Source: Rhodococcus sp. WMMA185
Lineage (GTDB): Bacteria; Actinomycetota; Actinomycetes; Mycobacteriales; Mycobacteriaceae
Assembly (NCBI RefSeq): GCF_001767395.1
Contig: NZ_CP017014.1
Span: forward strand, 186,001 to 250,000
Direction: 5' to 3'
DNA length: 64,000 bases
In this document: piece after piece, positions 25,987-63,480 of the stretch
Layout: each line of letters starts with the position of its first letter
How positions within the stretch are numbered: position 1 is the first letter of the stretch
Translations under genes and position numbers: made by a program
Notes under the pieces: model-generated
Seen by the model: the letters and a program-made list of their open reading frames with translations, nothing else
Databases searched by the model: none
What the model was told of the DNA's origin: nothing

Positions 25987-26015
25987 CTTCTCGTTCTTCG
26001 CCCGGACCCGCTTTA

Positions 26016-26029
26016 TTACCGTAGAGTAA
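26016..26029 (+). promoter_or_regulatory. TTAC-N6-GTAA operator overlapping the TetR-gene -10 region
   Basis: TTACCGTAGAGTAA; its right half runs into TAAGAT, a good -10 hexamer 7 bases upstream of the expected transcript start. The same palindrome is found before fadA2/fabG4 (29014) and fadE5 (35833). Expected to be bound by the adjacent TetR protein, by inference. Confidence 0.6.
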
Positions 26030-26061
26030 GATAGCGGGTCAGGGCGATCGATGGAGGACGA

Positions 26062-26661
26062 ATGGCGGGCGGCACCAAGCGATTGCCACGCGCAGTGCGC
26101 GAGCAGCAGATGCTCGATGCGGCTGTCGACGTCTTTTCCGACAGAGGATTTCACGAGACGTCTATGGACGCGATTGCGGCCAAGGCGGAAATCTCGAAGC
26201 CGATGCTGTACCTGTACTACGGGTCCAAGGATGAACTGTTCGCCGCCTGCATCGCACGCGAGGGCAGACGTTTCGTCGAGGCACTCGCTCCGGCGGGAGA
26301 TCCCAGCCTGAGCCCGCGAGAGCAGCTGCGTCGCGCGCTCGAGGAGTTCCTCGGGTTCGTGAGTTCGCACCGCAAGTCGTGGATGGTTCTGTACCGCCAG
26401 GCAATGAGGCAGCAGGCGTTCGTCGGTTCGGTGAAGTCGAGCCGAGACCGTCTGATCGAATTGACCGCCCATCTGCTCGAGTCGAGCACGCGGGATCCGG
26501 GTGAGGGCCAGGACTTCGAGCTGATCGCTATCGCCCTCGTCGGTGCGGGTGAGGCCGTCGCCGACCGTGTCGCCGGCGGTGAGATCGAGGTGGCTACGGC
26601 GGTCGATCTTCTGGAGTCTCTTGCCTGGCGCGGTCTAGCGGGCGAAAAGAAGCCGGAGTGA
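26062..26661 (+). CDS. TetR-family transcriptional regulator (Rv0238-like)
   Basis: 199 residues. The N-terminal helix-turn-helix spans about 30-62 (TSMDAIAAKAEISKPMLYLYY), with a ligand-binding C-terminal domain of no recognised type. GGAGGA precedes the ATG. A palindrome overlaps its own -10, pointing to autoregulation. Gene order LpqI-TetR-HtdX-FabG4-FadA2-FadE5 matches M. tuberculosis. The ligand is probably an acyl-CoA, given that the same palindrome precedes the fatty-acid genes; this is inference. Confidence 0.9.
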   Translation: MAGGTKRLPRAVREQQMLDAAVDVFSDRGFHETSMDAIAAKAEISKPMLYLYYGSKDELFAACIAREGRRFVEALAPAGDPSLSPREQLRRALEEFLGFVSSHRKSWMVLYRQAMRQQAFVGSVKSSRDRLIELTAHLLESSTRDPGEGQDFELIAIALVGAGEAVADRVAGGEIEVATAVDLLESLAWRGLAGEKKPE

Positions 26662-26722
26662 ATGTGCCTTTCGGCGGGGCGGCGCTGGGGTCGGTGACCG
26701 CGCAGCGCCGAAAGGCACATTC
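26660..26722. terminator. 17-bp inverted repeat between convergent TetR and htdX
   Basis: GAATGTGCCTTTCGGCG at 26660-26676 is exactly complementary to 26706-26722; a second GGCGCT/AGCGCC pair lies inside the loop. It overlaps the TetR stop and ends 10 bases before the htdX stop. Likely bidirectional terminator. Confidence 0.65.
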
Positions 26723-26732
26723 CCCGGGGCAG

Positions 26733-27599
26733 CTACCGTAGCGTCGCCGTGAGGTGGGGGTAACCCTTCCGCGCGTTCTTCAGCGAAAGATCCCAGCCGT
26801 CGTCGGTCTGATCGGCGTACAGGTTGAGCGTGGACGGTAGCAGAATCGGCTTGCCGAACCGGACACTGTAGGTGACGGCATCCGGAATCCGCCCCTCCAC
26901 CGAGCCGAGAACGGTAGCGGCGCTCCACATGCCGTGCGCAATCGGCTTGGGGAATCCGAAAGCCTTTGCGCCCAAGGACGAGACGTGAATCGGGTTGCGG
27001 TCACCCGACACCGCGGCGTACTTGCTGATCGTTTTTTGATCGACCCGGAGGGTTCGCAAGGGGCGAAGCGGTTCCGCCTCGCCTTTCGGCTCGGGGCCCG
27101 GCTGCCCGGACAACGACGTCTTCTGCTGATGCAGAAGGGTGGACGTCTGCTTCCATACCAGTTCGCGTCCGACCCTGATCTCGCTGATCACATCGATCAG
27201 CAGACCTTTGCGGTGCTCGCGCAGATTCGCCGCATGTACCGACACATCGAGCGGTTCGCTCATGGAGATGGGCCGAAGTTGTTCTATGACGTTCTCCGCG
27301 TGCACCGATCCGATGGCGGGGAAGGGGAACCCGTCCGACACCATCAACTTCATCATGATCGGGAACACCAGGGTGAACGGGTACGTCACCGGAAGGACGT
27401 CTCCGAAACGCAGGCCGGTCACCCGGTCATAAGCAGCCAGGTTGTCGGCATCGACGCGCAGGCCGTTCAGCACGAGCGTGGTGTCCGGGGCGTCGTGCCC
27501 ACTAGCCCCGATGAACGGTATCGCGCTGCGGACCGCACCAGCGTAGATGTCGAGCGTGCGCGGCGTCTCGGTGAGTCGCACCACCTTGCCCGCCATCAT
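26733..27599 (-). CDS. htdX: MaoC-type (R)-3-hydroxyacyl-thioester dehydratase HtdX
   Basis: 288 residues, double hot-dog hydratase that interconverts (R)-3-hydroxyacyl and trans-2-enoyl thioesters. The hydratase-2 motif is in the C-terminal half: [18 protein letters not shown] with catalytic Asp and His, followed by [14 protein letters not shown] overlaps the fabG4 stop (ATGA), so expression is coupled. It works with FabG4 and FadA2 in reductive or oxidative fatty acyl cycling; direction is not settled by sequence. Confidence 0.92.
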
Positions 27600-28942
27600 G
27601 CACCCAACAGGCTCTGGCCGCAGACTCGGACGACCTGCCCGGTGACGGCGCTCGATGCGGGACTTGCGAAGTAGGCGACAGTTTCGGCAACGTCGACGGT
27701 TTCACCGCCCTGCAGCAGGGAACTCATGCGACGTCCGGCCTCGCGCGTGGCGAAGGGAACCGCCGCGGTCATCGCCGTCTCGATGAAGCCTGGGGCAACG
27801 GCATTGATGGTGATCTTCTTCTTCGCCAGCACCGGCGCGGTCGCCTGCACCAACCCGATGACTCCCGCCTTCGAGGTACTGTAGTTGGTCTGCCCGCGAT
27901 TGCCCGCAATGCCGGCGATGGAGGAGACGTCGACCACGCGGCCGCCCTCCTTCAGAGCGCCCTTGGCGACGAGAGTGTCGGTGATTCGTTGCGGAGCAAG
28001 AAGGTTGACGTTGATCACCATGTTCCAGCGGCCCTCGTCCATGTTGGCGAGCGTCTTGTCGCGGGTGATGCCTGCGTTGTGGACGACGATGTCTGCGCCG
28101 CCGTGCCGTTCGAGGACGAACTCGGCCAGTTTGTCGGCCGCATCGTCGGCTGTGACATCGAGCGCGAGGGACGTTCCGCCCACCTTGTTTGCGGTCTCCG
28201 ACAGCGCCTCACCGGCAGACGGGATGTCGGCGCAGATGACGTGCGCGCCGTCGCGGGAGAGCACCTCGGCGATGGTGGCGCCGATGCCGCGGGCCGCACC
28301 CGTCACGATGGCAATCTTGCCGGCGAGGGGCTTGTCCCAGTCTGCGGGCGAAACGGAGTCTTGGTCGCCCACCCGGATGACCTGACCGCTGACGAATGCG
28401 GACTTGGCCGACAGCAGGAATCGGAGGGTGGATTCGAGGCCCGAGAGGCCTGCGGAGGCCTTCGGTGAGACGTAGACGAGCATCGAAGTGGCGCCGCGCT
28501 TGACTTCCTTGCCGACGCTGCGGGTGAAGCCTTCGAGCGCGCGCTGCGCGATGTGCTCGTCGACGTCGGACGTTTCTTCCGGAGTGGTGCCGAGTACCAC
28601 GACGCGCGCCGATGGCGCGAGGTTACGGATCACGGGCTGAAAGAACTCGAACAGCCGCTCGAGTTCGGTGACCGAAGCGATGCCGGTGGCATCGAATACG
28701 AGGGCGCCGTACTGGTCGTCGCCCGCGCTTGCCTCGGTGTAGTCGGACAGCAGTTGACGCAGCGGCTCGGCGAGACGGCCCTTGCCTCCGATCAGGACCG
28801 GACCGGGGAGCGGCGGCTCGCCGTGCTTGTATCGCCGCAAGTTCTCTGGGCGCGGCAGTCCCGCCTTCGCGGCGATGAAAGCGCCGGGCGCGGATGAGAG
28901 GAACTGGGAATAGATGTCGGGAGCTCCCTTGCTGGCTGACAC
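27596..28942 (-). CDS. fabG4: High-molecular-weight 3-oxoacyl-thioester reductase FabG4
   Basis: 448 residues, longer than normal FabG because of an N-terminal flavodoxin-like, non-catalytic domain (about 1-200). The C-terminal SDR domain has GAARGIG at 215-221, NAG at 289-291, Ser about 340, Y354 and K358. HMw FabG enzymes prefer NADH. Start GTG at 28942 has AAGGTAGG upstream and aligns with the Rv0242c N-terminus; the frame extends upstream but without homology. First gene of the fabG4-htdX operon, divergent from fadA2. Confidence 0.93.
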
Positions 28943-29013
28943 TGTCCTACCTTCTGTCGTCTCTGGGTGGTCAGTCACCGGGCTCCGATTGGGGCGCGGT
29001 GTCGACAAGAAAC

Positions 29014-29027
29014 TTACTCCTGAGTAA
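29014..29027. promoter_or_regulatory. TTAC-N6-GTAA operator in the fabG4/fadA2 divergent region
   Basis: TTACTCCTGAGTAA, extended to a 7-bp-arm palindrome CTTACTC-CT-GAGTAAG at 29013-29028. The right half joins TAAGAATAG, a -10-like hexamer for fadA2; read on the other strand it gives TAAGTT for fabG4. One site could control both operons. Confidence 0.65.
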
Positions 29028-29073
29028 GAATAGTAGCCAACAGGTAATCACACCAGATCCTTGGAGACGTTCA

Positions 29074-30408
29074 GTGACCAGCAAAGCTCGCACCACCTCG
29101 AAGTCCGCAGCAGCGCGGAAGCCACGCGGAAAGCAGCAGCGTCCCGTCGCCATCGTCGGCGGAAATCGAATTCCCTTCGCCCGCTCCGACAAGGCGTACG
29201 CGCAGGCGTCCAACCAGGACATGTTCACCGCGACCCTGGACGGGCTGGTGAGCCGCTTCAACCTTCAGGGCGAAAAGCTGGGCTTGGTAGCGGGTGGCGC
29301 CGTGCTCAAGCACAGCCGCGACTTCAACCTGATGCGCGAATCCGTGCTCGGTAGCGCGTTGAGCCCCTACACCCCGGCGTTCGACCTGCAGCAGGCGTGC
29401 GGCACCGGGTTGGCGTCGATTGTGACCGTCGGTGATGCGATCGCGGCCGGACGTATCGATGCCGGAGTTGGCGGTGGCGTCGACACTACGTCTGACGCCC
29501 CGATCGGCGTGAACGACGAGCTTCGCGAGTTCCTGTTGTCATTGAACCGTGCGAAGACGACTGGCGAACGCATCAAACTCCTCGGCAATGTTCGCCCCTC
29601 GATGCTCGGCGTCGAGATCCCACGCAACGGCGAACCCCGCACTGGGCTCTCGATGGGCGAGCACGCAGCCATCACGGCGAAGGAGTTCGGCATCCGCCGT
29701 GAGGACCAGGACGAATTGGCTGCGGCCAGCCACAAGAACATGGCCGCCGCATACGACCGCGGATTCTTCGATGATCTGGTGACGCCGTTCCTGGGCCTCA
29801 CCCGGGACGACAACCTGCGCCCCGGCTCCACCGTCGAGAAGCTGGCGACGCTGAAGCCGGTGTTCGGGGTAAAGGCGGGCGACGCCACGATGACGGCGGG
29901 GAACTCGACCCCGCTCACCGACGGCGCGTCTGCGGTCTTGCTGTCGAGCGACGAGTGGGCTGCCGAGCGCAAACTGCCGGTACTTGCCCATCTCGTCGAC
30001 TCCGAGACCGCGGCCGTCGACTACATCCATGGCAAGGACGGACTCTTGATGGCGCCGACGTACGCCATCCCGCGTCTGCTGGCCCGCAACGGCCTCACCT
30101 TGCAGGATTTCGATTTCTACGAGATCCACGAAGCTTTCGCATCCGTCGTGCTGGCGACGCTGCAGGCCTTCGAATCGGAGGAGTACTGCAAGGAGAGGCT
30201 CGGTCTCGACGGCGCACTCGGGTCTATCGATCGGAGCAAGCTGAACGTCAACGGATCATCGTTGGCGGCGGGGCACCCGTTCGCTGCGACGGGCGGCCGT
30301 ATCGTCGCATCGCTCGCCAAGGCGCTTGCCGAGAAGGGGTCAGGACGTGGGTTGATCTCGATTTGCGCGGCCGGCGGACAAGGTGTGACGGCAATCATAG
30401 AGGCGTGA
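29074..30408 (+). CDS. fadA2: Acetyl-CoA acetyltransferase / 3-ketoacyl-CoA thiolase (FadA2, FadI-like)
   Basis: 444 residues, thiolase fold. Nucleophile C109 in LQQACGTGLAS, H401 in LAAGHPFAATGG and acid/base C431 in CAAGGQG are all present. The length and the basic Lys/Arg-rich first 25 residues fit FadI-type degradative thiolases. Start GTG at 29074 with GGAGA upstream. Divergent from fabG4-htdX and sharing the palindrome. Likely cleaves 3-ketoacyl-CoA in beta-oxidation. Confidence 0.92.
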   Translation: MTSKARTTSKSAAARKPRGKQQRPVAIVGGNRIPFARSDKAYAQASNQDMFTATLDGLVSRFNLQGEKLGLVAGGAVLKHSRDFNLMRESVLGSALSPYTPAFDLQQACGTGLASIVTVGDAIAAGRIDAGVGGGVDTTSDAPIGVNDELREFLLSLNRAKTTGERIKLLGNVRPSMLGVEIPRNGEPRTGLSMGEHAAITAKEFGIRREDQDELAAASHKNMAAAYDRGFFDDLVTPFLGLTRDDNLRPGSTVEKLATLKPVFGVKAGDATMTAGNSTPLTDGASAVLLSSDEWAAERKLPVLAHLVDSETAAVDYIHGKDGLLMAPTYAIPRLLARNGLTLQDFDFYEIHEAFASVVLATLQAFESEEYCKERLGLDGALGSIDRSKLNVNGSSLAAGHPFAATGGRIVASLAKALAEKGSGRGLISICAAGGQGVTAIIEA

Positions 30409-30451
30409 TTCGACCGGTCTGTCGGGTAGCTGGCAGACCGAAAGGTCAGCG

Positions 30452-30468
30452 TGTTCGTATAACGAACA
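30452..30468. promoter_or_regulatory. 17-bp palindrome TGTTCGT-ATA-ACGAACA
   Basis: Perfect 7-bp arms in the 333-base gap between fadA2 and the VanW gene. The gap otherwise holds only the hairpin at 30556 and no recognisable gene. The spacing differs from the actinobacterial SOS box. Factor unknown. Confidence 0.4.
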
Positions 30469-30555
30469 ATCGTCCGGACTTGCGGAGTTGGTCGGATCTT
30501 TCGGGAACTCTTGGCCGCAGGTGTAACGCTGGAGATTAGCTGGCGATATTCCTTT

Positions 30556-30604
30556 GAGTCCCGTGCTGCTGCCTGACCCCCGACTTGGCAGCAGCGCGGG
30601 GCTC
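30556..30604 (+). terminator. 18-bp GC-rich hairpin downstream of fadA2
   Basis: Arms 30556-30573 and 30587-30604 pair along 18 positions, two of them G-U, around a 13-base loop. A short TCTACGTTTCC follows. Probable terminator of fadA2. Confidence 0.6.
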
Positions 30605-30741
30605 TCTACGTTTCCGGCGACGGTAGTCTGTCGACGGGCGCGGGGTCTGAACCGGACCTCGCTCTATTTGGCGCGCGCCCGAAATGCAACGAGCACCGAC
30701 GGCAAGCTGAGGCCGACGGACAAATCGGTGAGAGGGCCACG

Positions 30742-33015
30742 GTGAGGGACGAAGACGGCGATACAGGCAGCGATGCACACGAGGTGGCGCCGCCCGAGCC
30801 GAACTCCGACGAAGCCCCGACCACGCAACTGAACCTCGGTGAGCTCAACAAACGCCTCGACGGTGAGGATTCGGAACCTCAGGATCCGGACTCACAGCAT
30901 CCGGAACCTCAGGATCCGGACCCACAGCATCCTGAACCTCAGGATCCGGAACCTCAGGAATGGGCAGAGCCTGCACCCTACGACGCCGAGACGCAGGTGA
31001 TACCGGCGATCGCTCAGCAGGCCGATACCGGACAAGAGCGGGCGTATTCCAGGGCAGGTGAGCTGCCCGATGTGCCGACTGCGGACTCGCCCACCGGGCC
31101 CACCGTGGGTATCGAAGCTCAGGTACCGCAGACGGCGTCGGCGTCCGAACCTGCCGCTACGACTCGCCCGCCCTGGGCGAAGATTGCTGCAATTGCCGGA
31201 GCGGTTATCGCGGTGATCGCAATCGCTTATGTCGCCGACCTCGCCATGTCCTCCGGGAAAATCCCACGTGGGGTCACTGTGGCCGGTGTCGACGTGGGTG
31301 GGTCGACTCGTGAGGCTGCCGCCGCCACATTGGAGGCTCAGGTCGGGCCGCGGGTGGATCAACCGGTGACCGTGCAGGCCGGTGACGTGTCTGCGGAACT
31401 CGTGCCCGCTGCCGCCGGTCTCGGAGTCGACTGGGAAGCTACGCTCGACCGGGCCGATTCGCAACCACTCAATCCGTTCACTCGGCTCGCATCGTTCTTC
31501 TTCACCGACGAAATCGGCGTGGTCTCGACCCGCGACGACGCCGCGATGACCGCGGCCATCGATGATCTGCGTGGGCAGACCGACCGCGAGCCTCGTGAGG
31601 GAGACGTCGTATTCGAGGACGCAGCCCCCGTACCGGTCGATCCGCTGACTGGGCAGACACTCGACGGTGAGGGCGCATCGGCGGCGTTGACCGAGCGGTG
31701 GGCGTTCGGTCAGACGGTTGAGTTGCCCGTCGACGTGGTGCCCGTAACGGTCACGAGGGAAGGTGTCCAGAGGGCTCTCGACGAGATCGCGACGCCCGCT
31801 GTGTCTGCGGACCTGGTGTTCGCCGGCCGTGACGGCGAAGCTGCGACCCTGCAGCGGGAACAGGTCGGCGCCGTCCTCGGATTCGAGCCGGACGGCAACG
31901 GCGGGTTGAAGCCCACGTACAACCTCGAGGCTGCAACCGACATTCTGGCTCCCCAGCTCGAATCGACGGAGGTTGAGCCCAAAGATGCGACGATCGCTCT
32001 CAGCGGGGGATCGCCCACGGTCGTTCCGGCTGTCGTCGGAGACCTGGTGCAGTGGCCGCAGACTCTGCAGGAGTTGCCCGAATTGTTGCGCAGCAACGTC
32101 TCTCGCACAGCCGATGCGATTTACGGAGAGGTCGAGCCTGCTCTGACAACCGAAGATGCACAGGCGCTCGGGGTCAAGGAAGTGATCAGCGAGTTCACCA
32201 CCAGCGGGTTCTCGGCGGCCTCCGGCACCAACATCCGTCTCGCAGCCGCTCAGATCAACGGTGCGCTGATCAAGCCGGGCGACACTTTCTCGATGAACGA
32301 TTACACAGGTCCGCGTGGCACGGCCCAGGGCTACGTGGAGTCGGGAATCATCAACTACGGTCGCCCGGACACCGCTGTCGGCGGCGGGGTGAGCCAGGTG
32401 GCGACGACGCTCTACAACGCCGCGTATTTCGCCGGCATGGAGGATGTCGAGCACACCGAACACTCGTACTACATCTCGCGGTACCCGGAGGCGCGCGAAG
32501 CCACCGTCTTCGAGGGGGCCATCGACCTGAAATTCCGCAACACCTCGGACACCGGCGTCCTGATCGAGGCCATAGGCGGAAGTTCGGATCTGACTGTCAG
32601 GATGTGGGGAACCAAGACGGTCGATGTCCAGTCCATCACCGGCAACCGGACGAGGCCGACCCAGCCGGAGACGATCACGCTGCCGGCGGGTGATCACTGC
32701 ATCCCCTCGGGTGGCGCACCAGGATTCACCACCAGCGACACCCGCGTGATCTCCGATCACGCAACCGGGAGGGAGATCTCTCGCAACACCAGGACGGTTC
32801 GCTACGACCCAGTCCCGGTCGTCAAGTGCGAAGAGCCCGACGACGCAACAGAATCCGCCGAGCGCTCACCCGCTGCGATGCCCAAGCCGGCTGTGGAGAC
32901 TCCTGCCGCCACGCGAACTCAATCCCCAGTGGCCGCAAGCCCGACAACCACTACGACAAGCCCGACAACCACTACTACCAAGTCGAGGCCGAAGCCGATG
33001 CAGGAGGACGAGTAG
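30742..33015 (+). CDS. VanW-domain membrane protein with peptidoglycan-binding-like repeats
   Basis: 757 residues. The acidic cytosolic N-terminus contains three copies of a 10-residue Glu-Pro-Gln repeat (45-74). One membrane helix lies at 147-168, then a long external part with two PG_binding_4-like segments, then a VanW domain at about 478-625, and a Pro/Thr-rich tail of TTTTTSPTT type. It is therefore a single-pass protein facing the wall. VanW was named from vancomycin clusters but its activity is unknown. Start GTG has GAGAGGG 6 bases upstream. Confidence 0.85.
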   Translation: MRDEDGDTGSDAHEVAPPEPNSDEAPTTQLNLGELNKRLDGEDSEPQDPDSQHPEPQDPDPQHPEPQDPEPQEWAEPAPYDAETQVIPAIAQQADTGQERAYSRAGELPDVPTADSPTGPTVGIEAQVPQTASASEPAATTRPPWAKIAAIAGAVIAVIAIAYVADLAMSSGKIPRGVTVAGVDVGGSTREAAAATLEAQVGPRVDQPVTVQAGDVSAELVPAAAGLGVDWEATLDRADSQPLNPFTRLASFFFTDEIGVVSTRDDAAMTAAIDDLRGQTDREPREGDVVFEDAAPVPVDPLTGQTLDGEGASAALTERWAFGQTVELPVDVVPVTVTREGVQRALDEIATPAVSADLVFAGRDGEAATLQREQVGAVLGFEPDGNGGLKPTYNLEAATDILAPQLESTEVEPKDATIALSGGSPTVVPAVVGDLVQWPQTLQELPELLRSNVSRTADAIYGEVEPALTTEDAQALGVKEVISEFTTSGFSAASGTNIRLAAAQINGALIKPGDTFSMNDYTGPRGTAQGYVESGIINYGRPDTAVGGGVSQVATTLYNAAYFAGMEDVEHTEHSYYISRYPEAREATVFEGAIDLKFRNTSDTGVLIEAIGGSSDLTVRMWGTKTVDVQSITGNRTRPTQPETITLPAGDHCIPSGGAPGFTTSDTRVISDHATGREISRNTRTVRYDPVPVVKCEEPDDATESAERSPAAMPKPAVETPAATRTQSPVAASPTTTTTSPTTTTTKSRPKPMQEDE
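30874..30963 (+). repeat. 30-bp in-frame tandem repeat, three units
   Basis: Units code for EPQDPDSQHP, EPQDPDPQHP and EPQDPEPQEW. The in-frame period makes copy number likely to vary between strains. Lies in the cytosolic segment of the VanW protein. Confidence 0.85.
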
Positions 33016-33032
33016 CCGCGTTGCTCCCGAAT

Positions 33033-33060
33033 GCGCCCGTTCTTCGAACAGGTTGGGCGC
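33033..33060 (+). terminator. Short hairpin after the VanW gene
   Basis: GCGCCC and GGGCGC with a 16-base loop that itself holds GTTC-TTC-GAAC, followed by CCCATTTTCG. Weak intrinsic terminator candidate. Confidence 0.4.
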
Positions 33061-33143
33061 GGCCCATTTTCGCACATCCGGGTTTACGTGTCGGAGAATC
33101 ACGGGAGCTTGCTCTTGACAAGCTTGGGTATGAGAGTTGAGGG

Positions 33144-33335
33144 ATGACCAAGCAGAGGTTTCGAGTACTGAACGCCGCCTGTACGGCATTGGCCATTTTG
33201 TGTGTCATGCTCCCGATCATGTTGCAGGGGAGATTCTCTAGCGGGATCCTCGGCTGGTCTCTAGCGCTGATCGTTCTGGCAATTTGGTTCTCCGCGGCGG
33301 TTGTCATGTGGCGGAAGCAGAACATGCCACGGTGA
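33144..33335 (+). CDS. 63-residue two-helix membrane protein
   Basis: MTKQRFRVLNAAC start, then hydrophobic segments at about 10-28 and 35-56, ending WRKQNMPR. GAGAG lies 7 bases before the ATG. Basic termini suggest both ends in the cytosol. No family recognised; neighbours give no clear role. Confidence 0.55.
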   Translation: MTKQRFRVLNAACTALAILCVMLPIMLQGRFSSGILGWSLALIVLAIWFSAAVVMWRKQNMPR

Positions 33336-33462
33336 TCGAGTGTTGATTCCGTTGCGAACCTGAGGCTGCGCACCCGGCAGGCTGTAGGTACGTACGCTGG
33401 CCGCCAGGTGGTGCTGACGGCCAGCTTGCTGCAGTCCTGTATGGCAATCGTCAAACGGGACA

Positions 33463-33476
33463 ACCCTCTAGAGGGT
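33463..33476. repeat. 14-bp perfect palindrome ACCCTCTAGAGGGT
   Basis: Lies between the convergent small membrane genes (stops at 33335 and 33517). With no loop it can only form a cruciform or serve as a protein site. No other copy was noticed. Confidence 0.4.
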
Positions 33477-33516
33477 CAGTCGCGGAGAGTGAGGGGTGTC
33501 CCGCCATCGTTGTCGG

Positions 33517-33744
33517 TCAATTCAAGCGAGTGACGAGCCGCCGCGCGATCAGCCACCATGCAAGCGCGCCCAAGAAAGGGACTAGCAGCACGATCACTAT
33601 CCATACGATCTTCACCCCCACAGACGCAATTCGTGCACGAATGATCGCAACGGAGGTCGCCACGACAAATACGGCCCCAAGCATCCAGAGAACGTCTGCG
33701 TACAGCGGTAACAGTGGTTCGCTCGAGGCTTCGGCCACGGACAT
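33517..33744 (-). CDS. Small PLDc_N-type membrane protein
   Basis: 75 residues with two membrane helices; the second, VGVKIVWIVIVLLVPFLGAL, followed by WWLIARR, is the PLDc_N (phospholipase D N-terminal) pattern found alone in many actinobacterial small proteins. ATG at 33744 chosen; a GTG lies one codon upstream. The role of stand-alone PLDc_N proteins is unknown. Confidence 0.7.
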   Translation of the reverse strand: MSVAEASSEPLLPLYADVLWMLGAVFVVATSVAIIRARIASVGVKIVWIVIVLLVPFLGALAWWLIARRLVTRLN

Positions 33745-33875
33745 CACACCACTCTAGAAGATGATCTCTTGTCGAACCTCGCCAGGTCATGGCTGAAAGC
33801 AATGTGCCCCGGCGCTTTTCAGTGGCGGGTCATGGCTTGCAGAACTAGTGGCTGATCGATATCCAGAAAAACGAA

Positions 33876-33917
33876 ACGGTCGCCGCAACTCCTACGGTTG
33901 GGTGTTGCGGCGACCGT
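33876..33917 (-). terminator. Intrinsic terminator of fadE5
   Basis: ACGGTCGCCGCAAC and GTTGCGGCGACCGT form a perfect 14-bp stem with a 14-base loop. Read from fadE5 it is followed by TCGTTTTTCTGG, a proper T-tract. The clearest rho-independent terminator in the window. Confidence 0.88.
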
Positions 33918-33939
33918 CAGTAGTTGGTCTCCGAGCCGA

Positions 33940-35775
33940 TCAGAAGGCGGCTTCGTCGAGCTCCATGATGTCGTTGTCGATGTTGGTGATGATGCCGCGG
34001 GTTGCGGTGAGCTCGGGCAGAACGTTCTTGGCGAAGAAGGACGCGATGGCGACCTTTCCTTCGTAGAACGACTTGTCCGCCCCGGATGCACCCTCGTCGA
34101 GAGCCTTGATCGCGATCTCCGACTGCTGCAGCAGCTGCCAGCCGATGAGCAGGTCGCCGACGGCCATCAGGAAGCGGACGGAGCCGAGGCCGACCTTGTA
34201 CAGCTCGGTCGGCTGCTCCTGCGCACCCATGAGGTACCCGGTGAGGGTGGCTGCCATGGTCTGAACGTCCTCGAGGGCGGTGGCGAGCAAAGCCCGCTCG
34301 GCCTTGAGGCGACCGTTGCCTGCCTCGCTGTCGATGAACTTCTTGACCTGTCCGGCAACGTGCGCGAGGGCCACGCCACGGTCGCGGGCAATCTTGCGGA
34401 AGAAGAAGTCCTGCGCCTGAATGGCGGTGGTGCCCTCGTACAGGGAGTCGATCTTCGCGTCGCGGATGTACTGCTCGATCGGGTAGTCCTGCAGGAAGCC
34501 CGAGCCACCGAAGGTCTGCAGGCTTTCGGTCAGGTACTGGTACGCGCGCTCGGAGCCGACGCCCTTGACGATCGGAAGCAGCAGGTCGTTGACCCGGTAC
34601 GCGAGGTCTTCGTCCGCGCCGGACACCAACTTGGCGACGGCCGCGTCTTGGTGTGCCGCGGTGTACAGGTAGACCGCGCGCAACCCTTCGGCGTATGCCT
34701 TCTGCATCGCGAGGGCACGACGGACGTCGGGGTGGTGCGTGATGGTGACACGCGGAGCGGCCTTGTCGGTCATCTGCGTGAGGTCGGCGCCCTGCACGCG
34801 CTCCTTGGCGTAATCGAGGGCGTTGAGGTAGCCGGTGGAGAGCGTGGCGATGGCCTTGGTGCCGACCATCATGCGAGCGTGCTCGATGACGTCGAACATC
34901 TGCGCGATGCCGTTGTGGATCTCGCCGACGAGCCAGCCCTGCGCGGGAATGCCGTGGCCACCGAAGGTGAGCTCACAGGTGGCCGATACCTTCAGGCCCA
35001 TCTTGTGCTCGACGTTGGTGACGAAGACGCCGTTGCGCTCGCCGTACTCGTTGGTCTCGAAGTTGAAGTGCGTCTTCGGGACGTAGAAGAGGCTCAGTCC
35101 CTTGGTGCCCGGTCCGGCGCCCTCGGGGCGCGCGAGGACGAGGTGGAAAATGTTCTCGAACAAGTCGTCGGAGTCGGCCGAGGTGATGAACCGCTTGACA
35201 CCCTCGATGTGCCAGGAGCCGTCGTCCTGCTTGATGGCCTTGGTGCGTCCGGCGCCGACGTCGGAGCCGGCGTCGGGCTCGGTGAGGACCATGGTCGCGC
35301 CCCATCCGCGCTCGACGATGGTCTCGGCCCACTTCTTCTGTTCGTCGGTGCCGTTGTTGTACAGAACGTTGGCGAACGCGGGACCGGCCTGGTACATGTG
35401 CGCAGCTGGCTGGGAGCCGAGGATCAGTTCATTGATGGCCCACACGGCGGACCGTGGCACGGGAACGCCCCCGATCTCCTCGGAGAGACCCATGCGGTAC
35501 CACTCGGCGTCGTAGAGGGCGCGGAAGGACTTCTTGAACGATTCCGGCAGCGTGACGGAGTGGCTCTCGGGGTCGAAGACCGGGGGGTTGCGGTCGGCAT
35601 CGGCGAACGATTCGCCGAGCGGTCCTTCGGCGAGGCGGGCAACTTCACTGAGCATGTTGCGGATCGTGTCTGCGTCGAGATCGCCCCATACGCCTTCGCC
35701 TAGCGGCTGCTCGAGCCCGAGTACCTCGAAGAGGTTGAACTCCAGGTCGCGGACGTTGCTCTTGTAATGGCCCAT
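33940..35775 (-). CDS. fadE5: Acyl-CoA dehydrogenase FadE5
   Basis: 611 residues, exactly the length of Rv0244c. FAD enzyme for the first step of beta-oxidation, with broad chain-length use in mycobacteria. Catalytic base E447 is in [11 protein letters not shown]; the FAD loop [13 protein letters not shown] and the R-Y-G-F-type C-terminal helical domain of long ACADs are present. ATG at 35775 starts [10 protein letters not shown]. Controlled by a TTAC-N6-GTAA palindrome 58 bases upstream and closed by a strong terminator, so it is a single-gene unit. Confidence 0.95.
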
Positions 35776-35832
35776 GTCTTCTGTCTCTCCCAGTGAGATG
35801 GTGCGGTCTGTCAGCGAGTACCGCCCAAGTTA

Positions 35833-35846
35833 TTACTCGTCGGTAA
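35833..35846 (-). promoter_or_regulatory. TTAC-N6-GTAA operator overlapping the fadE5 promoter
   Basis: On the gene strand TTACCGACGAGTAA followed by TAACT, so the right half forms a TAATAA -10-like hexamer. Same site type and geometry as at 26016 and 29014. Confidence 0.6.
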
Positions 35847-35857
35847 CTTTGCTGATA

Positions 35858-36481
35858 TTACGCGCGATTTTCCTGACTGCCAAGACCTCGACGGCGCGCG
35901 ACCACGAGTGCGTCGATTGCTGTGCCGGTGTCGGTCTCTCGGGAGCGCCGTTCTGCGACGTCGATGTCGAGCCTGCCTTTGAACGATGCTACCAAATCAT
36001 CTGGACTGTAGAGGATTTCGGCGTCTGGTGGACCACCGACCCCCTGTGTCGAGTTGACTGTGTCATGCCCCAAAATCATGAGGATTCCATCAGGTTTCAG
36101 AGCGCATATGGCGCGGTTCACAACCTGGAGGCGCTCCTCGGGGGCGAGATGGAGGTAGATCATCAGCACGAGGTCGTACTCGCCGCCGAGGTCCGAAGCG
36201 GTGACATCGGCCAGCCGGTAGTCGAGCCGTTCGCGGACGGATCGGGGCGCCGCTGCGGCCACTCGGACGGCTCTGTCGAGGGCTACGGCCGAGAAGTCGA
36301 GGGCCGTCACCTCCCAGCCGCGAGTGGCGAGCCAGTGTGCGTTGCGGCCCTCTCCGCATGCGAGGTCGAGTGCGCGGCCGCGGGGAAGCGAGGTGACCCA
36401 CTCCACCACCAACTCGTTCGGTGGCTCGCCGCGCACGAGTTCTCTGCGCGAGTACAGCTCGTCCCAGGCCGATGCATCCAT
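35858..36481 (-). CDS. Class I SAM-dependent methyltransferase, TehB-like
   Basis: 207 residues. SAM loop ALDLACGEGRNAHWLA at about 36-51, then VTALDFSAVALDRA, and MIYLHLAPEERLQVV further on; these resemble TehB/thiopurine-type methyltransferases. ATG MDASAWDELYSRREL chosen as the family N-terminus. Starts 14 bases after the stop of the DUF4185 gene, so probably co-transcribed. Substrate unknown. Confidence 0.82.
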   Translation of the reverse strand: MDASAWDELYSRRELVRGEPPNELVVEWVTSLPRGRALDLACGEGRNAHWLATRGWEVTALDFSAVALDRAVRVAAAAPRSVRERLDYRLADVTASDLGGEYDLVLMIYLHLAPEERLQVVNRAICALKPDGILMILGHDTVNSTQGVGGPPDAEILYSPDDLVASFKGRLDIDVAERRSRETDTGTAIDALVVARRRGLGSQENRA

Positions 36482-43718: not shown

Positions 43719-43811
43719 TCGGTTACTCGGCAGTACGTCAGCATGCGAAAGAGTATGGCCGAACATGCCGGGATCGTCAGGTTCTGCGCGAGCGAGTCGG
43801 CCCGAAACTGT

Positions 43812-49945: not shown

Positions 49946-51010
49946 TCAGGACGGCCACGCCAGTGAGCCGAGGCTGCCGAGCGATCCCGTCGACTGTGCT
50001 TGTTCGATCGCGATCACCGACACTGAATGGCCCGAGTAGTTGGTGACGTAGGCGTGGGTACCGCTGGGAGTGATCGCCACCCCGTACGGGCCGTTGCTGA
50101 TGTCGATGGTGGTGGCGGTGTGGGTGGCGGTGTCGATCACTGACACGGTGTCGCCGTAGAGGTTGGTGACATAGGCGTGGGTGCCGTCGGGGGTGATCGC
50201 CACTCCGGACGGGCCGTGGCCGACGTCGATTGTGGTGGTGACGGTGTGGGTGGTGGTGCCGATTACCGACACGGTGTTGTCGGCGCTGTTGGTGATGTAG
50301 GCGTGGGTGCCGTCGGGGGTGATCGCAACCGCTTTTGGTTTGTCTCCGACGTCGATTGTGGTGGTGACGGTGTGGGTGGTGGTGTCGAGCACCGACACGG
50401 TGTTGTCGTAGAGGTTGGTGATGTAGGCGTGGGTGCCGTCGGGGGTGATCGCCACATCGCCCGGGCCGTTGCCGATGTCGATGGTGGTTGCGGTGTGGGC
50501 GGTGGTGCCGATTACCGACATGGTGTTGTCGGCGCTGTTGGTGACGTAGGCGTGGGTGCCGTTCGGGGTGATTGCCACCCCGACGGGCTTTTGGCCGACG
50601 TCGATGGTGGTGATGGCGTGGGTGGTGGTGTCGAGCACCGACACGGTGTTGTCGTAGTAGTTGGTGATGTAGGTGTGGGTGCCGCCCGGGGTGATCGCCA
50701 CATCGCCCGGGCCGTTGCCGACCTCGATGGTGGTTGCGGTGTGGGCGGTGGTGTCGATCACCGACACCGAATCGCCGCCGTGATTGATCGCATAGGCGTG
50801 GGTGCCGCCGGGGGTGATCGCCACCCCGACTGGATAGTCCCCGACATCGATGGTTGTGGTGACGGTGTCGGCATGCGTGGTCGGGGCGGCCGCTAGCACC
50901 AGTCCCGCCGCGAGGGCGACGGCGAGGCTTACTGTGCGTCGTTGCCCAGTGCGGTACCCCGACTCCGTGCAACCGCCGCGATGGGGTGATTCGACTGTGG
51001 TGTGCGACAT
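49946..51010 (-). CDS. Secreted seven-bladed YVTN beta-propeller A
   Basis: 354 residues. A basic N-terminus and an Ala/Leu core form a signal peptide cleaved near THA-DTV. Seven repeats of about 41 residues follow, each TTIDVGxxPxGVAITPxGTHAYxTN..SVSVxDTTTH, giving a seven-bladed propeller. A short linker and the tail GSLGSLAWPS end the protein. The leader AAGGAGTCCGATCACG before the ATG is shared with propeller B. YVTN propellers bind proteins or glycans; no catalytic site is visible. Confidence 0.88.
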   Translation of the reverse strand: MSHTTVESPHRGGCTESGYRTGQRRTVSLAVALAAGLVLAAAPTTHADTVTTTIDVGDYPVGVAITPGGTHAYAINHGGDSVSVIDTTAHTATTIEVGNGPGDVAITPGGTHTYITNYYDNTVSVLDTTTHAITTIDVGQKPVGVAITPNGTHAYVTNSADNTMSVIGTTAHTATTIDIGNGPGDVAITPDGTHAYITNLYDNTVSVLDTTTHTVTTTIDVGDKPKAVAITPDGTHAYITNSADNTVSVIGTTTHTVTTTIDVGHGPSGVAITPDGTHAYVTNLYGDTVSVIDTATHTATTIDISNGPYGVAITPSGTHAYVTNYSGHSVSVIAIEQAQSTGSLGSLGSLAWPS

Positions 51011-51248: not shown

Positions 51249-52574
51249 TCAGGAGGGCCAGGCCAACGAGCCGAGGCTGCCGCTGGACCCGGTCGACGGC
51301 GTGTCCGTGATGTCGAGGGTGACGGGCAGGTAGGCGTCGTCACCGATGCCGTTGATCGCGGTGACCGTGAATGCGAACTTCCCTGCGGCAGTGGGGGTGC
51401 CGGACAGGACACCATCGGCACTGATAGTAAGCCCATCGGGCAGGGGTCCGGCGGTGAAGGTGGTGGTGGGTTCAGGCTCTCCGGTCAGGGTGAAGGCGTA
51501 CTCGTAGGGCTGCCCGACGACACCGACCGGGGGTGTGCCGGTCAGCGTTGGTGCCGCGTCGATCGCGAGCACCGACACCGTGTCGTCGTTGCTGTTGGTG
51601 ATATAAGCGTGGGTGCCGTTGGGGGTAATCGCCAGCCCGGTCGGGTCGTCGCCGACGTCGATGGTGTCTGTGACGGTGTTGGTGGCGGTGTCGAGTACCG
51701 ACACCGTGTTGCCAAGGGTGTTGGTGACGTAGGCGCGGGTGCCGTCGGGGGTGATCCCTACCGCGCTCGGGGAGTTGCCGACGCCGATGGTGGTGGCAAT
51801 GGTGTTGGTGGTGGTGTCGATCACCGACACAGTGTTGTCGCTGCTGTTGGTGATGTAGGCGTGGTTGCCGTTGGGGGTGATCGCTACCCCGTACGGTCCG
51901 TCGCCGACGTCGATGGTGGTGGTGACGGCGTTGGTTCCAGTGTTGATCACCGACACCGTGTCGCTGGAGGCATTGGTGATGTAGGCGTGGTTGCCGTTGG
52001 GGGTGATCGCTACCCCGTACGGTCCGTCGCCGACGTCGATGGTGGTGGTGACGGTGTTGGCTCCAGTGTTGATCACCGACACCATGTCGCGGGTGAGGTT
52101 GGTGATGTAGGCGTGGTTGCCGTCGGGGGTGATCGCCACTCTCAGCGGATAGCTGCTGACATCGATGGTGGTGGCGGTGTGGGTGGTGGTGTCGAGCACC
52201 GACACCGTGCCGCCACCGAAGTTGGTCACGTAGGCGTGGGTGCCGTCGGCTGTGATCGTCACGTCGTGCGGTTCGTCGCCGACGTCGATCGTGGTGACGT
52301 CGTGGGTGGTGGTGTCGATCACCGACACCGAGTTCGAGTCTCGGTTGGCGACGTAGGCGTGGGAGCCGTCGGGGGTAATTGCGACGCCGTCCGGGCCGCT
52401 GCCGACGCCGATGGTGGTGGTGACGGTGTCGGCGTGCGCGGCAGGGACGGCTGAGAACATCAGCCCCGCAGCCAGGGCGGCGACCATACCCACGGCGCGC
52501 TCTTGCCCGGTGCCGGGTTCCGCATCCGGGCGACCGACGAGACGGGGATAGTCAGCAATGGTGTTGCGCGACAT
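51249..52574 (-). CDS. Secreted YVTN beta-propeller B with C-terminal Ig-like domain
   Basis: 441 residues. Signal peptide cleaved near AHA-DTV, seven propeller repeats as in A, then an extra domain of about 90 residues starting APTLTGTPPVGVVGQPYEY. This is a putative-Ig (He_PIG/cadherin-like) domain with GLPDGLTISADG-type strands. The tail is again GSLGSLAWPS. Upstream AAGGAGTCCTATCACG. Middle gene of three, 70 bases after propeller C. Confidence 0.87.
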   Translation of the reverse strand: MSRNTIADYPRLVGRPDAEPGTGQERAVGMVAALAAGLMFSAVPAAHADTVTTTIGVGSGPDGVAITPDGSHAYVANRDSNSVSVIDTTTHDVTTIDVGDEPHDVTITADGTHAYVTNFGGGTVSVLDTTTHTATTIDVSSYPLRVAITPDGNHAYITNLTRDMVSVINTGANTVTTTIDVGDGPYGVAITPNGNHAYITNASSDTVSVINTGTNAVTTTIDVGDGPYGVAITPNGNHAYITNSSDNTVSVIDTTTNTIATTIGVGNSPSAVGITPDGTRAYVTNTLGNTVSVLDTATNTVTDTIDVGDDPTGLAITPNGTHAYITNSNDDTVSVLAIDAAPTLTGTPPVGVVGQPYEYAFTLTGEPEPTTTFTAGPLPDGLTISADGVLSGTPTAAGKFAFTVTAINGIGDDAYLPVTLDITDTPSTGSSGSLGSLAWPS

Positions 52575-52644
52575 CGTGATAGGACTCCTTCGACGGATAA
52601 GGGGTGCCTGGGCGGAGGCATTTCTGGTGGTCCGAGCCTGTTGA

Positions 52645-53706
52645 TTAGGACGGCCAGCTCAGTGAGCCGAGGCTGCCGAATGACGACCGTGACTCCTCGA
52701 TCGCGATTACCGACACCGTGTTGTTGTTGTTGTTGGTGACGTAGGCGTGGGTGCCGTCTGGGTTGATCGCCACCCCGGTCGGTCCGTCGCCGACGTCGAC
52801 GGTGGTGGCGACGGTGTGGGTGGTGGTGTCGAGTACCGACACCGCGTCGCCGCTGTTGTGGGTGATGTAGGCGTGGGTGCCGTCGGGGTTGATCGCCACC
52901 CCGGTCGGTCCGTCGCCGACGTCGATCGCGGTGACGGTGTGGGTGGTGGTGTCGAGTACCGACACCGCGTCCCCGTTGGTGTGGGTGACGTAGGCGTGGG
53001 TGCCACGGGGAGCAATCGCCACATCGATCGGGTTGCGGCCGACGTCGACGGTGGTGATGACGGTGTGGTTGGTGGTGTCGAGCACCGACACCGCGTGGCC
53101 GCTGTTGTGGGTGATGTATGCGCGGGTGCTGTCGGGGGTGATCGCCACCTCGTTCGGTCCGTCGCCGACGTCGATCGTGGTGACGTCGTGGTTGGTGGTG
53201 TCGATTACCGACACCGTGTTGCTTCGGAGGTTGGTGACGTAGGCGCGGGTGCCGTCGGGGGTGATCGCCACCGCGGACGGGTCGTCGCCGACGTCCATCG
53301 CGGTGACGTCGTGGGTGGTGGTGTCGATTACCGACACCGTGTTGCTTCGGAGGTTGGTGACGTAGGCGCGGGTGCCGTCGGGGGTGATGGCCACGTCGAA
53401 CGGTAGGTTCCCGACGTCGATGGTGGTGACGTCGTGGGTGGTGGTGTCGATTACCGACACCGTGTTGCTGAGGGTGTTGGTGACGTAGGCGTGGGTGCCG
53501 TCGGGGGTAATTGCGACCCCGTCCGGGCCTTTGCCCACGTCGATCGTGGTGGTGACGGTGTCGGCGTGCGCAGCCGGAGTTGCCGTGAGCATCAGCCCCA
53601 CAGCCAGGGCAGCGACCAACCCTGCCGTTTGCCGTGGCCCGGTCCGGGGCTCTGCCCTCTGGCTACCTACACGACCGGACGGGTCGACAATGGTGGTGCG
53701 TGACAT
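52645..53706 (-). CDS. Secreted seven-bladed YVTN beta-propeller C
   Basis: 353 residues. Signal peptide cleaved near AHA-DTV, seven repeats, tail GSLGSLSWPS. ATG at 53706 (MSRTTIVDPSG) chosen by comparison with A and B, which start at the same place; the spacing of its weaker GAGGGGG site is also the same. A TATAGT -10-like hexamer is at 53748-53753. First gene of the tandem set. Confidence 0.86.
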   Translation of the reverse strand: MSRTTIVDPSGRVGSQRAEPRTGPRQTAGLVAALAVGLMLTATPAAHADTVTTTIDVGKGPDGVAITPDGTHAYVTNTLSNTVSVIDTTTHDVTTIDVGNLPFDVAITPDGTRAYVTNLRSNTVSVIDTTTHDVTAMDVGDDPSAVAITPDGTRAYVTNLRSNTVSVIDTTNHDVTTIDVGDGPNEVAITPDSTRAYITHNSGHAVSVLDTTNHTVITTVDVGRNPIDVAIAPRGTHAYVTHTNGDAVSVLDTTTHTVTAIDVGDGPTGVAINPDGTHAYITHNSGDAVSVLDTTTHTVATTVDVGDGPTGVAINPDGTHAYVTNNNNNTVSVIAIEESRSSFGSLGSLSWPS

Positions 53707-61860: not shown

Positions 61861-63098
61861 CGTCCTCTGGAATTCTGCGAGGGGTCGATCTGGCGGCCTT
61901 CGCCGTGGCGTTGGTGGCCAAACTCAGATCCAGCGGTGTCATTGTTTCTGCCAGCGGCCCAGCAGTTTTCGTGGAGTCCCTACACCTGTCACCTCCGACC
62001 TCGCGAGCGCCGCTCTACTGGTCGGCACGTCTGACTCTCGTCAACCGCGTGGAAGACCTCGCCGCCTTCGATGCGGTGTTTTCTGCGGTGTTCGACGACG
62101 CGCTCGTATCCCTGGATCCGGTCGCACGCCGCGTGGCGCCGGGGCGGGAGACCTCGCTGGCCGGTATCCATGGCGGACGCGATCGTGGCGACGAGGAGGT
62201 CGAGGACGTCGAGGGCGTGCCGTGGGTGACCCGACCGACGGTGACCGGCGGCGGGTCCGTCGAGGAACTCGACGATGTGCTCACCGCTGTGCCGGACACC
62301 CTACCCAGCCGTCTCGCCGCAATGGCGGACGAACCCTTCGCGCGGTTCGATGCCGACGATCTCAGGCTCCTTGGATCATGGCTCGAGCAGGCCACCGCCC
62401 GATGGCCGCGCCGCCGTGCCCGCCGCCGCGAAGTGCACCGCCGTGGTCGGCGTATCGACTTGCGCGCCACCATGAATCGGTCGAGGGCCACGGGTTGGGA
62501 ACCGGTGGTCCTTGCGAGATCGCGCACCCGGACCCGCCCGCGTCGCATCGTGATGCTCTGTGACGTGAGCCGATCGATGCAGCCATACGCGGCAATCTAT
62601 CTGCACCTCATGCGGGCAGCCGTGCAGCGGCCGAGCGCGGGTCGACCGGAGGTGTTCGCCTTTTCCACTTCCCTGACGCGCCTGACGCCGGTGCTGTCGC
62701 ATCGCAGCGCCGAGACCGCGGTCGAGAGGGCGAACGAGAAGGTGGCCGACCGGTTCGGCGGCACCCATATCGCCGGCAGCCTGGGTGAGCTGCTGGCATC
62801 GCCGCACGGCAACGCGTTGCGGGGCGCGCTGGTCGTCATCGCCTCCGACGGATGGGACAGCGACGACCCGGACACTCTCGCACACATGCTGGTACGCATC
62901 CGACGGCGTGCGCACAGCGTGGTGTGGCTCAACCCTCGCGCCGGCGACCCCGGCTTCGAGCCGCTCGCCGGATCCATGGCGGCTGCGCTGCCACTCTGCG
63001 ATGCCTTCCTCCCGGCACACTCGCTGTCCGCGCTCCGCGATGCCTTGGACGTGATCGGCCGGGTGGGATCGCAGGGTGTGAGAGTTCCAGGTCGGTAG
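61857..63098 (+). CDS. coxE: VWA-domain protein, CoxE-like
   Basis: 413 residues. A C-terminal von Willebrand A domain carries the MIDAS motif DVSRSM (DxSxS) after a strongly basic stretch (WPRRRARRREVHRRG). Partners the AAA+ ATPase CoxD in copper and sulfur insertion. Last gene of the operon; translation is coupled to coxG by ATGA. Its final codons, GGTCGGTAG, merge into the 25-bp repeat array that follows. Confidence 0.9.
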   Translation: MTSSGILRGVDLAAFAVALVAKLRSSGVIVSASGPAVFVESLHLSPPTSRAPLYWSARLTLVNRVEDLAAFDAVFSAVFDDALVSLDPVARRVAPGRETSLAGIHGGRDRGDEEVEDVEGVPWVTRPTVTGGGSVEELDDVLTAVPDTLPSRLAAMADEPFARFDADDLRLLGSWLEQATARWPRRRARRREVHRRGRRIDLRATMNRSRATGWEPVVLARSRTRTRPRRIVMLCDVSRSMQPYAAIYLHLMRAAVQRPSAGRPEVFAFSTSLTRLTPVLSHRSAETAVERANEKVADRFGGTHIAGSLGELLASPHGNALRGALVVIASDGWDSDDPDTLAHMLVRIRRRAHSVVWLNPRAGDPGFEPLAGSMAAALPLCDAFLPAHSLSALRDALDVIGRVGSQGVRVPGR

Positions 63099-63480
63099 GC
63101 TGTGGCGTTTCCACGTCGGTAAGGGTGTGGCGTTTCCACGTCGGTAAAGGTGTGGCGTTTCCACGTCGGTAAAGGTGTGGCGTTTCCACGTCGGTAAAGG
63201 TGTGGCGTTTCCACGCCTAGGGTCCCTGGCCGCGATGGCGCCAATCCCTGAAGCTTGAAGTACATCGCACACGGACCCGCGATTCTCACAAGGAATTCGC
63301 AAGTCGGGCAAGGGAACACCCCATCCCCATCACCGAAACGGTCTCAACGGTGCGGTGGGGTAGCCACTGGATGCGAGACGCAGGCCTCGGCCGTACGGTC
63401 GGGGCTTGGGTCGTGTCTGCAGGCGTCCTTCGGCGACTTCGGTGCTTGGTTGCTAGTCCTCTGTTGCTAGTCCTCCGTTG
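63099..63480. other. 382-base gap after coxE
   Basis: Holds the 25-bp tandem array (63101-63219) and the three 14-bp repeats at its right end. The 230 bases between contain no convincing ORF or hairpin. It separates convergent coxE and the LigD gene. Confidence 0.5.
63101..63219. repeat. 25-bp tandem repeat, five units
   Basis: Units start at 63101, 63126, 63151, 63176 and 63201, at exact 25-bp period: TGTGGCGTTTCCACG then TCGGTAAAGG. Each has a small dyad GTGG-N5-CCAC. Copies differ by one base at most; the last is cut after CCACG. No spacers, so it is not a CRISPR array. Confidence 0.92.

Follow-up and report, generated by a model that had tools for sequence, protein, structure and literature searches.

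The stretch described here, called the window throughout, comprises 64,000 nucleotides of Rhodococcus sp. WMMA185 (NCBI RefSeq assembly GCF_001767395.1, contig NZ_CP017014.1, positions 186,001 to 250,000 of the forward strand). It carries a lipid module in which the palindrome TTAC-N6-GTAA lies ahead of a TetR-family regulator gene (the window TetR), between the divergent genes fabG4 and fadA2, and ahead of fadE5. The gene order is a GH3-family protein, the TetR regulator, htdX-like and fabG4-like genes on the minus strand, a fadA2-like thiolase, a VanW-domain protein and a fadE5-like acyl-CoA dehydrogenase. The htdX-like gene is probably in an operon with fabG4. The order was kept, without a matched VanW gene, in nine genomes of genus label g2, which were taken as mycobacteria; in one of them fadE5 lay outside the stretch. 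By gene order the window TetR is presumably of the Rv0238 type. Rv numbers and the lineage names of other genomes are our own assumptions, the lineage names being guesses in part. The features are as follows, with the putative operators divided into the classes A and B defined below.

26016..26029, plus strand: TetR operator, class A, TTACCGTAGAGTAA; right half running into a -10-like TAAGAT at 26027-26032; at least 7/8 in 79/80 orthologs; class A score 22.4, class B score 14.6
26062..26661, plus strand: TetR-family regulator of 199 amino acids with recognition helix SKPMLYLYY; Pfam TetR_N and TetR_C_46 over cut-off
26733..27599, minus strand: htdX-like MaoC dehydratase; Pfam MaoC; open reading frame (ORF) overlapping the next gene by 4 bases
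27596..28942, minus strand: fabG4-like 3-oxoacyl-ACP reductase; NCBIfam NF006110, 684.7 bits against a cut-off of 410; GTG start assumed; scanned as 27596-28945
29014..29027, no strand assigned: fabG4/fadA2 operator, class A, TTACTCCTGAGTAA; 8/8 in 71/71 fadA2 loci; class A score 25.3, class B score 16.5
29002..29031, plus strand: fadA2 promoter-like TCGACA with TAAGAA (17 bp) or AAGAAT (18 bp), from a consensus scan; overlaps the operator
29074..30408, plus strand: fadA2-like thiolase with GTG start; NCBIfam NF006740, 781.5 bits against 539
33940..35775, minus strand: fadE5-like acyl-CoA dehydrogenase; Pfam Acyl-CoA_dh_M, _1 and _C over cut-off; named from gene order
35833..35846, minus strand: fadE5 operator, class B, GTTACCGACGAGTAAT; class B score 22.9, class A score 12.8
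35855..35883, minus strand: fadE5 promoter-like TTGGCA-17-TAATAT, from a consensus scan; upstream of the operator; same elements in loci L048, L054, L056 and L060

A preliminary description, made from the letters of the window, had placed three TTAC-N6-GTAA sites in this module. All three were present and above chance: the window has three copies of TTACN6GTAA, where 100 dinucleotide shuffles averaged 0.05. The first precedes the TetR gene and the second is common to the divergent fabG4 and fadA2 promoters. The third, as a palindrome match, reads TTACCGACGAGTAA at 35846-35833 on the minus strand ahead of fadE5. A genome-wide scan, proposed as a check, gave a divided result. The signal for plain TTACN6GTAA was weak (12 compared to 7 for the reversed control) and YTACYN4RGTAR showed no excess (33 compared to 35). 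The class B 16-mer GYTACYN4RGTAAC was enriched, with 61 + 54 (115) matches on the two strands of 12 genomes compared to 5 + 4 (9) for the reversed control. The case for the sites is carried by conservation, not by plain-pattern genome-wide counts.

Conservation was counted within -300 to +60 of the start in 80 named Rhodococcus, Nocardia, Antrihabitans and Prescottella loci, and each site was scored as the number of half-site bases matched out of 8. Loci in whose stretch the gene, or its N-terminus, could not be located were dropped (fabG4 10, fadA2 9, fadE5 62). A perfect site was present ahead of the TetR ortholog in 75/80 loci, with at least 7/8 in 79/80. The corresponding counts at 8/8 were 70/70 for fabG4, 71/71 for fadA2 and 12/18 for fadE5, where all 18 loci reached at least 7/8. 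Ten of eleven permuted control palindromes matched at most 9 loci at 7/8. The remaining control, ACTT, reached 48/80 at TetR, 70/70 at fabG4 and 71/71 at fadA2 because it overlaps the true site there; at 8/8 it matched just 4, 1 and 1. The motif is therefore conserved ahead of the orthologous genes, as a suggested comparison of their upstream regions was to check, and both palindromic operators of TetR-like form and a single site serving fabG4 and fadA2 are supported. The proposed consensus TTACYS..GAGTAA fared less well, being broken in some orthologs, for example TTACCTTGGAGTAA in Nocardia.

The three sites had been described as one motif. Their flanks and centres instead split into two operator classes, which are very probably real. 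Class A is CTTAC-N6-GTAAG and is found at the TetR gene (26016) and at the fabG4/fadA2 divergent promoters (29014). Class B is GYTACYSRYSRGTARC and is found at fadE5 (35833) and also at etfB, etfD and fadA. Site picking ignored the flanks, and fadE5, from the same named lineages as class A, was left out of both class matrices. C at -1 with G at +15 was present in 35/43 distinct TetR-gene sites and 24/24 fadA2 sites (59/67), while G..C was present in 0/67. Among the class B sites of etfB, etfD, fadA and TetR-negative etfB the flanks were G..C in 61/92 and C..G in 2/92. The central step was YR in 48/67 class A sites (RY in 6) compared to 1/92 class B sites (RY in 74). Leave-one-out class calls were correct in 41/41 and 81/82 cases, and the held-out fadE5 sites were called class B in 11/11 distinct 16-mers. 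The classes also held outside the training set within the family: fadA2 was class A in 12/12 genomes (7 distinct sequences), fadE5 was class B in 8/8 mycobacteria (one sequence; fadE5 was not found in the ninth), and a class A site preceded the TetR gene in 3/3 non-mycobacterial members. In the nine g2 genomes the fabG4/fadA2 site was class A in 9/9. Autorepression of the TetR gene, also proposed, is consistent with the operator at the gene itself but is not universal, since a class A site was scored at only 4/9 mycobacterial TetR genes.

Class B sites persisted in genomes without the window TetR. The SKPM recognition helix was found in 27/30 chosen genomes and in none of the other three, which are labelled g41. 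These three keep sites at etfBA, etfD and fadA and also at two genes named by eye, one like fadE5 and one like isocitrate lyase, and all 15 distinct full sites in the fetched g41 loci scored higher as class B. In 30 further genomes without a close TetR ortholog the etfB site matched at least 7/8 in 23/30 and 8/8 in 8, compared to 0-3 for permuted controls. The sites are thus not confined to genomes in which the TetR occurs, and the window TetR cannot own the whole set because those 23 genomes keep the etfB site. As an observation apart, genes resembling isocitrate lyase by eye are preceded by class B-like full sites in two g41 genomes (L284 and L292), a link that would connect the glyoxylate shunt with this motif.

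The wider set of sites was followed in the same genome and in others. The genome of strain WMMA185 has 12 TTACN6GTAA sites, of which three are in the window and four are full sites before etfBA, etfD, a thiolase (fadA) and malic enzyme. The five others, at loci L006, L007, L010, L011 and L012, were not counted as support. Among them the L007 match is the top of a hairpin, the L010 match lies inside a helicase reading frame, the L006 site lies between two same-strand genes about 33 bp apart and the L012 site is about 470 bp from the nearest start. In the 30 chosen genomes a site of at least 7/8 was found at etfB in 28/29 (one had no etfB match), at etfD in 27/30 and at fadA in 19/19 close orthologs, 11/30 genomes having been dropped for distant thiolases only; permuted-palindrome controls gave 0-5. 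The etfB site was present in 51/59 genomes overall, with at least one in 15/16 sampled families of the order (not f11). Two etfD sites were found in 4/7 mycobacteria and two fadE5 sites in Nocardia loci, while the window has single intact sites. From the scan of 12 genomes with the 16-mer, 40 further places were taken, with 61 nearby ORFs. Many of these were acyl-CoA genes by eye, and several places were inside or beside unrelated genes. Pfam was run on 10 of the 61 proteins. Seven had matches to the families of thiolase, zinc-dependent dehydrogenase, 3-hydroxyacyl-CoA dehydrogenase, acyl-CoA mutase, acyl-CoA dehydrogenase (two proteins) and AMP-binding proteins. Of the other three, one matched pyruvate-ferredoxin oxidoreductase and one a general FAD-oxidoreductase model, and an etfD-like fragment was without a match at 1e-10. 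Separately, 7/8 class B-like sites lie before or at the starts of dlaT-, aceE- and lpd-like genes of the same genome (L244, L245 and L248; names partly by eye), which would be three components of pyruvate dehydrogenase. A divergent gene lies on the other side of the lpd site.

The window TetR scored 63.9 bits with TetR_N (Pfam cut-off 24) and belongs to the TetR family. It was closest to the NCBIfam FasR equivalog NF053731 but fell far below its cut-off (89.5 compared to 330 bits), whereas the FasR ortholog of the same genome, L046, scored 378.7 bits. M. tuberculosis FasR (Rv3208) is, like the window TetR, of the TetR family; it differs in its helix, SKPVLYQHF compared to SKPMLYLYY. The best PDB match of the window TetR is 3f1b, a TetR-like regulator nearly identical to it (199 residues, 387.8 bits), and 6o6p is next. 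Entries 6o6n, 6o6o and 6o6p are presumably FasR, which is consistent with the best PDB match of L046. The 3f1b listing gives no operator or ligand, and a one-term look-up for it in PMC7382501 gave 0 hits. The FasR-type helix was found in 26/30 genomes with a further TetR stretch (18 + 7 + L046). These stretches were chosen from BLAST or family hits, and the other four (G014, G027, G052 and G062) held another TetR. The 25-mer of the FasR co-crystal, as given in the Methods of PMC7382501, contains one exact and one single-mismatch TAC-N6-GTA, the core also present in class B sites. Its best score had p=0.0016 for class B and p=0.0073 for class A by mononucleotide shuffles (0.16% compared to 0.73%).

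Position, shared history and the SKPM helix all point to the window TetR as the likely owner of class A. The FasR-type protein is the best candidate for class B, slightly favoured rather than proven. Taken together, the window TetR would use class A at its own gene and at fabG4-htdX/fadA2, while its FasR sibling would use class B in a beta-oxidation regulon; we give this combined reading a probability of about 0.5. We infer both the pairing of protein with class and the repression itself, and release by acyl-CoA is suggested by analogy with FasR. As an aside, a second TetR with an SKPM helix occurs at L255, L256 and L257 of family f14, with C..G sites in two of the three loci. At L255 and L257 its divergent neighbour is, by eye, a flavin-monooxygenase-like gene, and a CTTAC..GTAGG site lies upstream of the TetR.

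The geometry of the promoters partly agrees with the overlap of operator and -10 element that the preliminary description proposed for all of them. It fits at the TetR gene, where the operator runs into TAAGAT, and at fabG4, where TAAGTT reads as a -10. Toward fadA2 it nearly fits, the -10 being TAAGAA or AAGAAT and TCGACA lying ahead of it. As one palindrome ends in TAAGTT for fabG4 and TAAGAA for fadA2, one bound dimer could block both promoters. The overlap probably fails at fadE5. There the better promoter, conserved in 4/4 Rhodococcus fadE5 loci inspected, lies upstream, so the palindrome is placed about 9 bp downstream of the -10 and covers the start point. Nocardia fadE5 loci have two sites, and the upstream one contains the -10. 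T at the sixth -10 position was found in 91% of distinct sites at TetR and in 88% and 91% of two etfB sets, which have TAACAT-like -10s. It was lower at fadA2 (71%), etfD (63%), fadE5 (60%) and fadA (41%). Part of this T signal could be extended palindrome symmetry.

The proposed mechanism has two paralogous TetR proteins, probably acyl-CoA-responsive, which would share the TAC-N6-GTA core and use different operators. The window TetR would bind CTTAC-N6-GTAAG at its own promoter and at the fabG4-htdX/fadA2 divergent promoter and would repress by covering -10 elements, so that a single operator could shut both divergent promoters. The FasR-type sibling would bind class B at fadE5, etfBA, etfD, fadA and probably malic enzyme, repressing by covering the -10 or the start site. 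Long-chain acyl-CoA would release it, and beta-oxidation and its electron-transfer chain would then be switched on together. A wider version is tentative. It places FasR at the root, as a repressor that acts throughout the actinobacteria on genes of beta-oxidation, electron-transfer flavoprotein and linked acetyl-CoA metabolism, and makes the window TetR an ancient sibling that took over fabG4-htdX and fadA2 through a change in one flank base and in the operator's central step. The linked genes in some lineages, named by eye, are isocitrate lyase, crotonyl-CoA reductase and acyl-CoA mutase. The sample covers one order, and the pan-actinobacterial claim is an extrapolation from it.

Other explanations were weighed against this two-regulator reading. 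In the preliminary description the neighbouring TetR controlled itself, fabG4/fadA2 and fadE5 as one regulon, to which etfBA, etfD and fadA would then be added. The TTAC and GTAA halves are common to all sites, and the three window sites are near the TetR and conserved with it. One regulon for all three was nonetheless rejected because of the class split and the class B sites in TetR-negative genomes. The fadE5 sites are class B in every distinct 16-mer and mycobacterium scored, and the etfB site persists without a close TetR ortholog and in g41, which makes this explanation very unlikely. If instead both siblings bound both classes with different affinities, their regulons would overlap with graded cross-talk. 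The common core, the mixed class calls outside the family and near ties in g41 would fit, but the separation of classes within the family is sharp, and cross-talk of this kind is unlikely. RNA hairpins acting as terminators would also give palindromes. The TetR operator does lie inside a long hairpin (26000-26052, z -5.9) just past the stop codon of the upstream gene, and at L007 (1480-1535) the match forms the top of a 14-pair hairpin (z -4.1), probably a terminator, which separates the genes for an acyl-CoA dehydrogenase and an inositol-monophosphatase-like protein. The longer TetR stem passed the same hairpin test in only 1/75 distinct related stretches, and z was 0.45 for the 29014 region and -1.31 for the 35833 region. 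The hairpin explanation was rejected except for the L007 match and is scarcely credible for the sites as a whole.

It is also conceivable, if doubtful, that class B belongs to a third regulator and not to FasR, with both classes real and class A still owned by the window TetR. Class B spans nearly all sampled families, FasR-type genes had no autoregulatory site in the loci read, and the FasR oligonucleotide match is suggestive, not decisive. Against this, FasR-bound DNA has the same TAC-N6-GTA core and a FasR-type protein occurs in most of the genomes with a further TetR stretch. Among loci close to class B sites no autoregulated class B regulator stood out. In mycobacteria the TetR that precedes rpsL, which by position we take to be Rv0681-like, was tried as owner of class B and rejected: its helix, readable in 3/4 genomes, was unrelated in those three, and none of the four stretches had a site of at least 7/8.

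Several observations weigh against the two-regulator reading itself. FasR and the window TetR are 30% identical. The FasR oligonucleotide separates class B from class A weakly (10.6 compared to 8.3 bits), and the repeat in it that scores best is imperfect in one half-site. No site of at least 7/8 was found upstream of FasR-type genes in the 7 loci read. Outside the family the classes were mixed, with fadA2 giving 3 A and 3 B in 6 genomes and the TetR gene giving 3 A, 4 B and 1 without a site in 8. No site was scored at the TetR gene in 5/9 g2 genomes. Some g41 scores are near ties (17.5 compared to 17.7), and g41 scoring covered fetched loci (24 sites listed, 15 loci). The class-score threshold is reached by 29/1000 random windows, and site counts are not independent events because the sites are related by descent. 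The etfB site was lacking in 7/30 TetR-negative genomes, including both of family f11. The TetR-negative status of those 30 genomes is based on best TetR hits of 29-34% identity where listed, and the SKPM-helix search covered the first 30 genomes. FasR was published as an activator of fas-acpS, and the word "oxidation" is absent from the main text of a FasR-mutant paper (PMC7652896). A review calls Rv0238 an efflux-pump regulator and notes P450 induction on its overproduction (PMC6469627).

The likeness to known systems is partial. FadR (Bacillus type) and PsrA are TetR repressors of beta-oxidation genes that are released by acyl-CoA, and their operators differ from these. The proposal for the window system would likewise be a TetR-type beta-oxidation repressor released by acyl-CoA. 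The window TetR scored 41.3 bits against the FadR cut-off of 200 in NCBIfam and 35.6 against 300 for PsrA. FasR binds three inverted repeats upstream of fas, and its binding to the fas promoter is disrupted by acyl-CoA of C16 and longer (PMC7382501). A TAC-N6-GTA motif, motif X, was reported upstream of fas and is associated with palmitate-induced clusters (McGuire et al. 2012; PMC3388012). The sites described here carry the same palindromic core upstream of fatty-acid genes. In mycobacteria motif X occurs at fas, Rv3229c and Rv3230c, where 2-3 sites cluster, and section 16 of that paper names no regulator. The terms Rv3029c, fixA, Rv0338c, Rv0244c, fadE5 and Rv0238 are absent from its main text. 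Only five TetR-type regulators, Rv0238 and Rv3208 among them, were retained by every mycobacterium analysed in one study, M. leprae included (PMC4482099), and Rv0238 was predicted by a network model to be essential on glycerol (PMC8648758). In the tubercle bacillus both the function of acyl-CoA dehydrogenases and beta-oxidation depend on EtfBA and EtfD, and etfD transcripts respond to iron via IdeR (PMC8593149). In the open-access literature surveyed (listed titles, abstract starts and passages) Rv0238 had no demonstrated operator, and these sites were ascribed neither to it nor to FasR. Both the TAC-N6-GTA core and its occurrence at fas were known before. As far as the open literature and its listings show, the two classes, the order-wide class B set of fadE5, etf and fadA, and a division of the sites between the window TetR and a FasR-type regulator are new.

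Some further features were observed elsewhere in the window. A one-mismatch site, GTACTGCCGAGTAA, lies on the minus strand at 43723-43736 within the 5' part of a predicted 394-amino-acid ORF that is lipoprotein/nuclease-like by eye. A tandem array at 63085-63215 has 5.3 copies of a 25-bp unit with 96% match. Four copies of TTACCGACGTGGAA, which differs from the motif at two positions, lie in it 25 bp apart. At 50039-50868 and 51566-53561 there are long arrays of repeats of 123-126 bp that may encode a beta-propeller protein, which is a guess.

Little is known of how these bacteria control beta-oxidation, and a Streptomyces paper of 2017 described the regulatory signals and genes of triacylglycerol and fatty-acid catabolism as undescribed (PMC5539140). 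The two-class code is a testable prediction for both regulators and would link fatty-acid synthesis and breakdown through one sensor.

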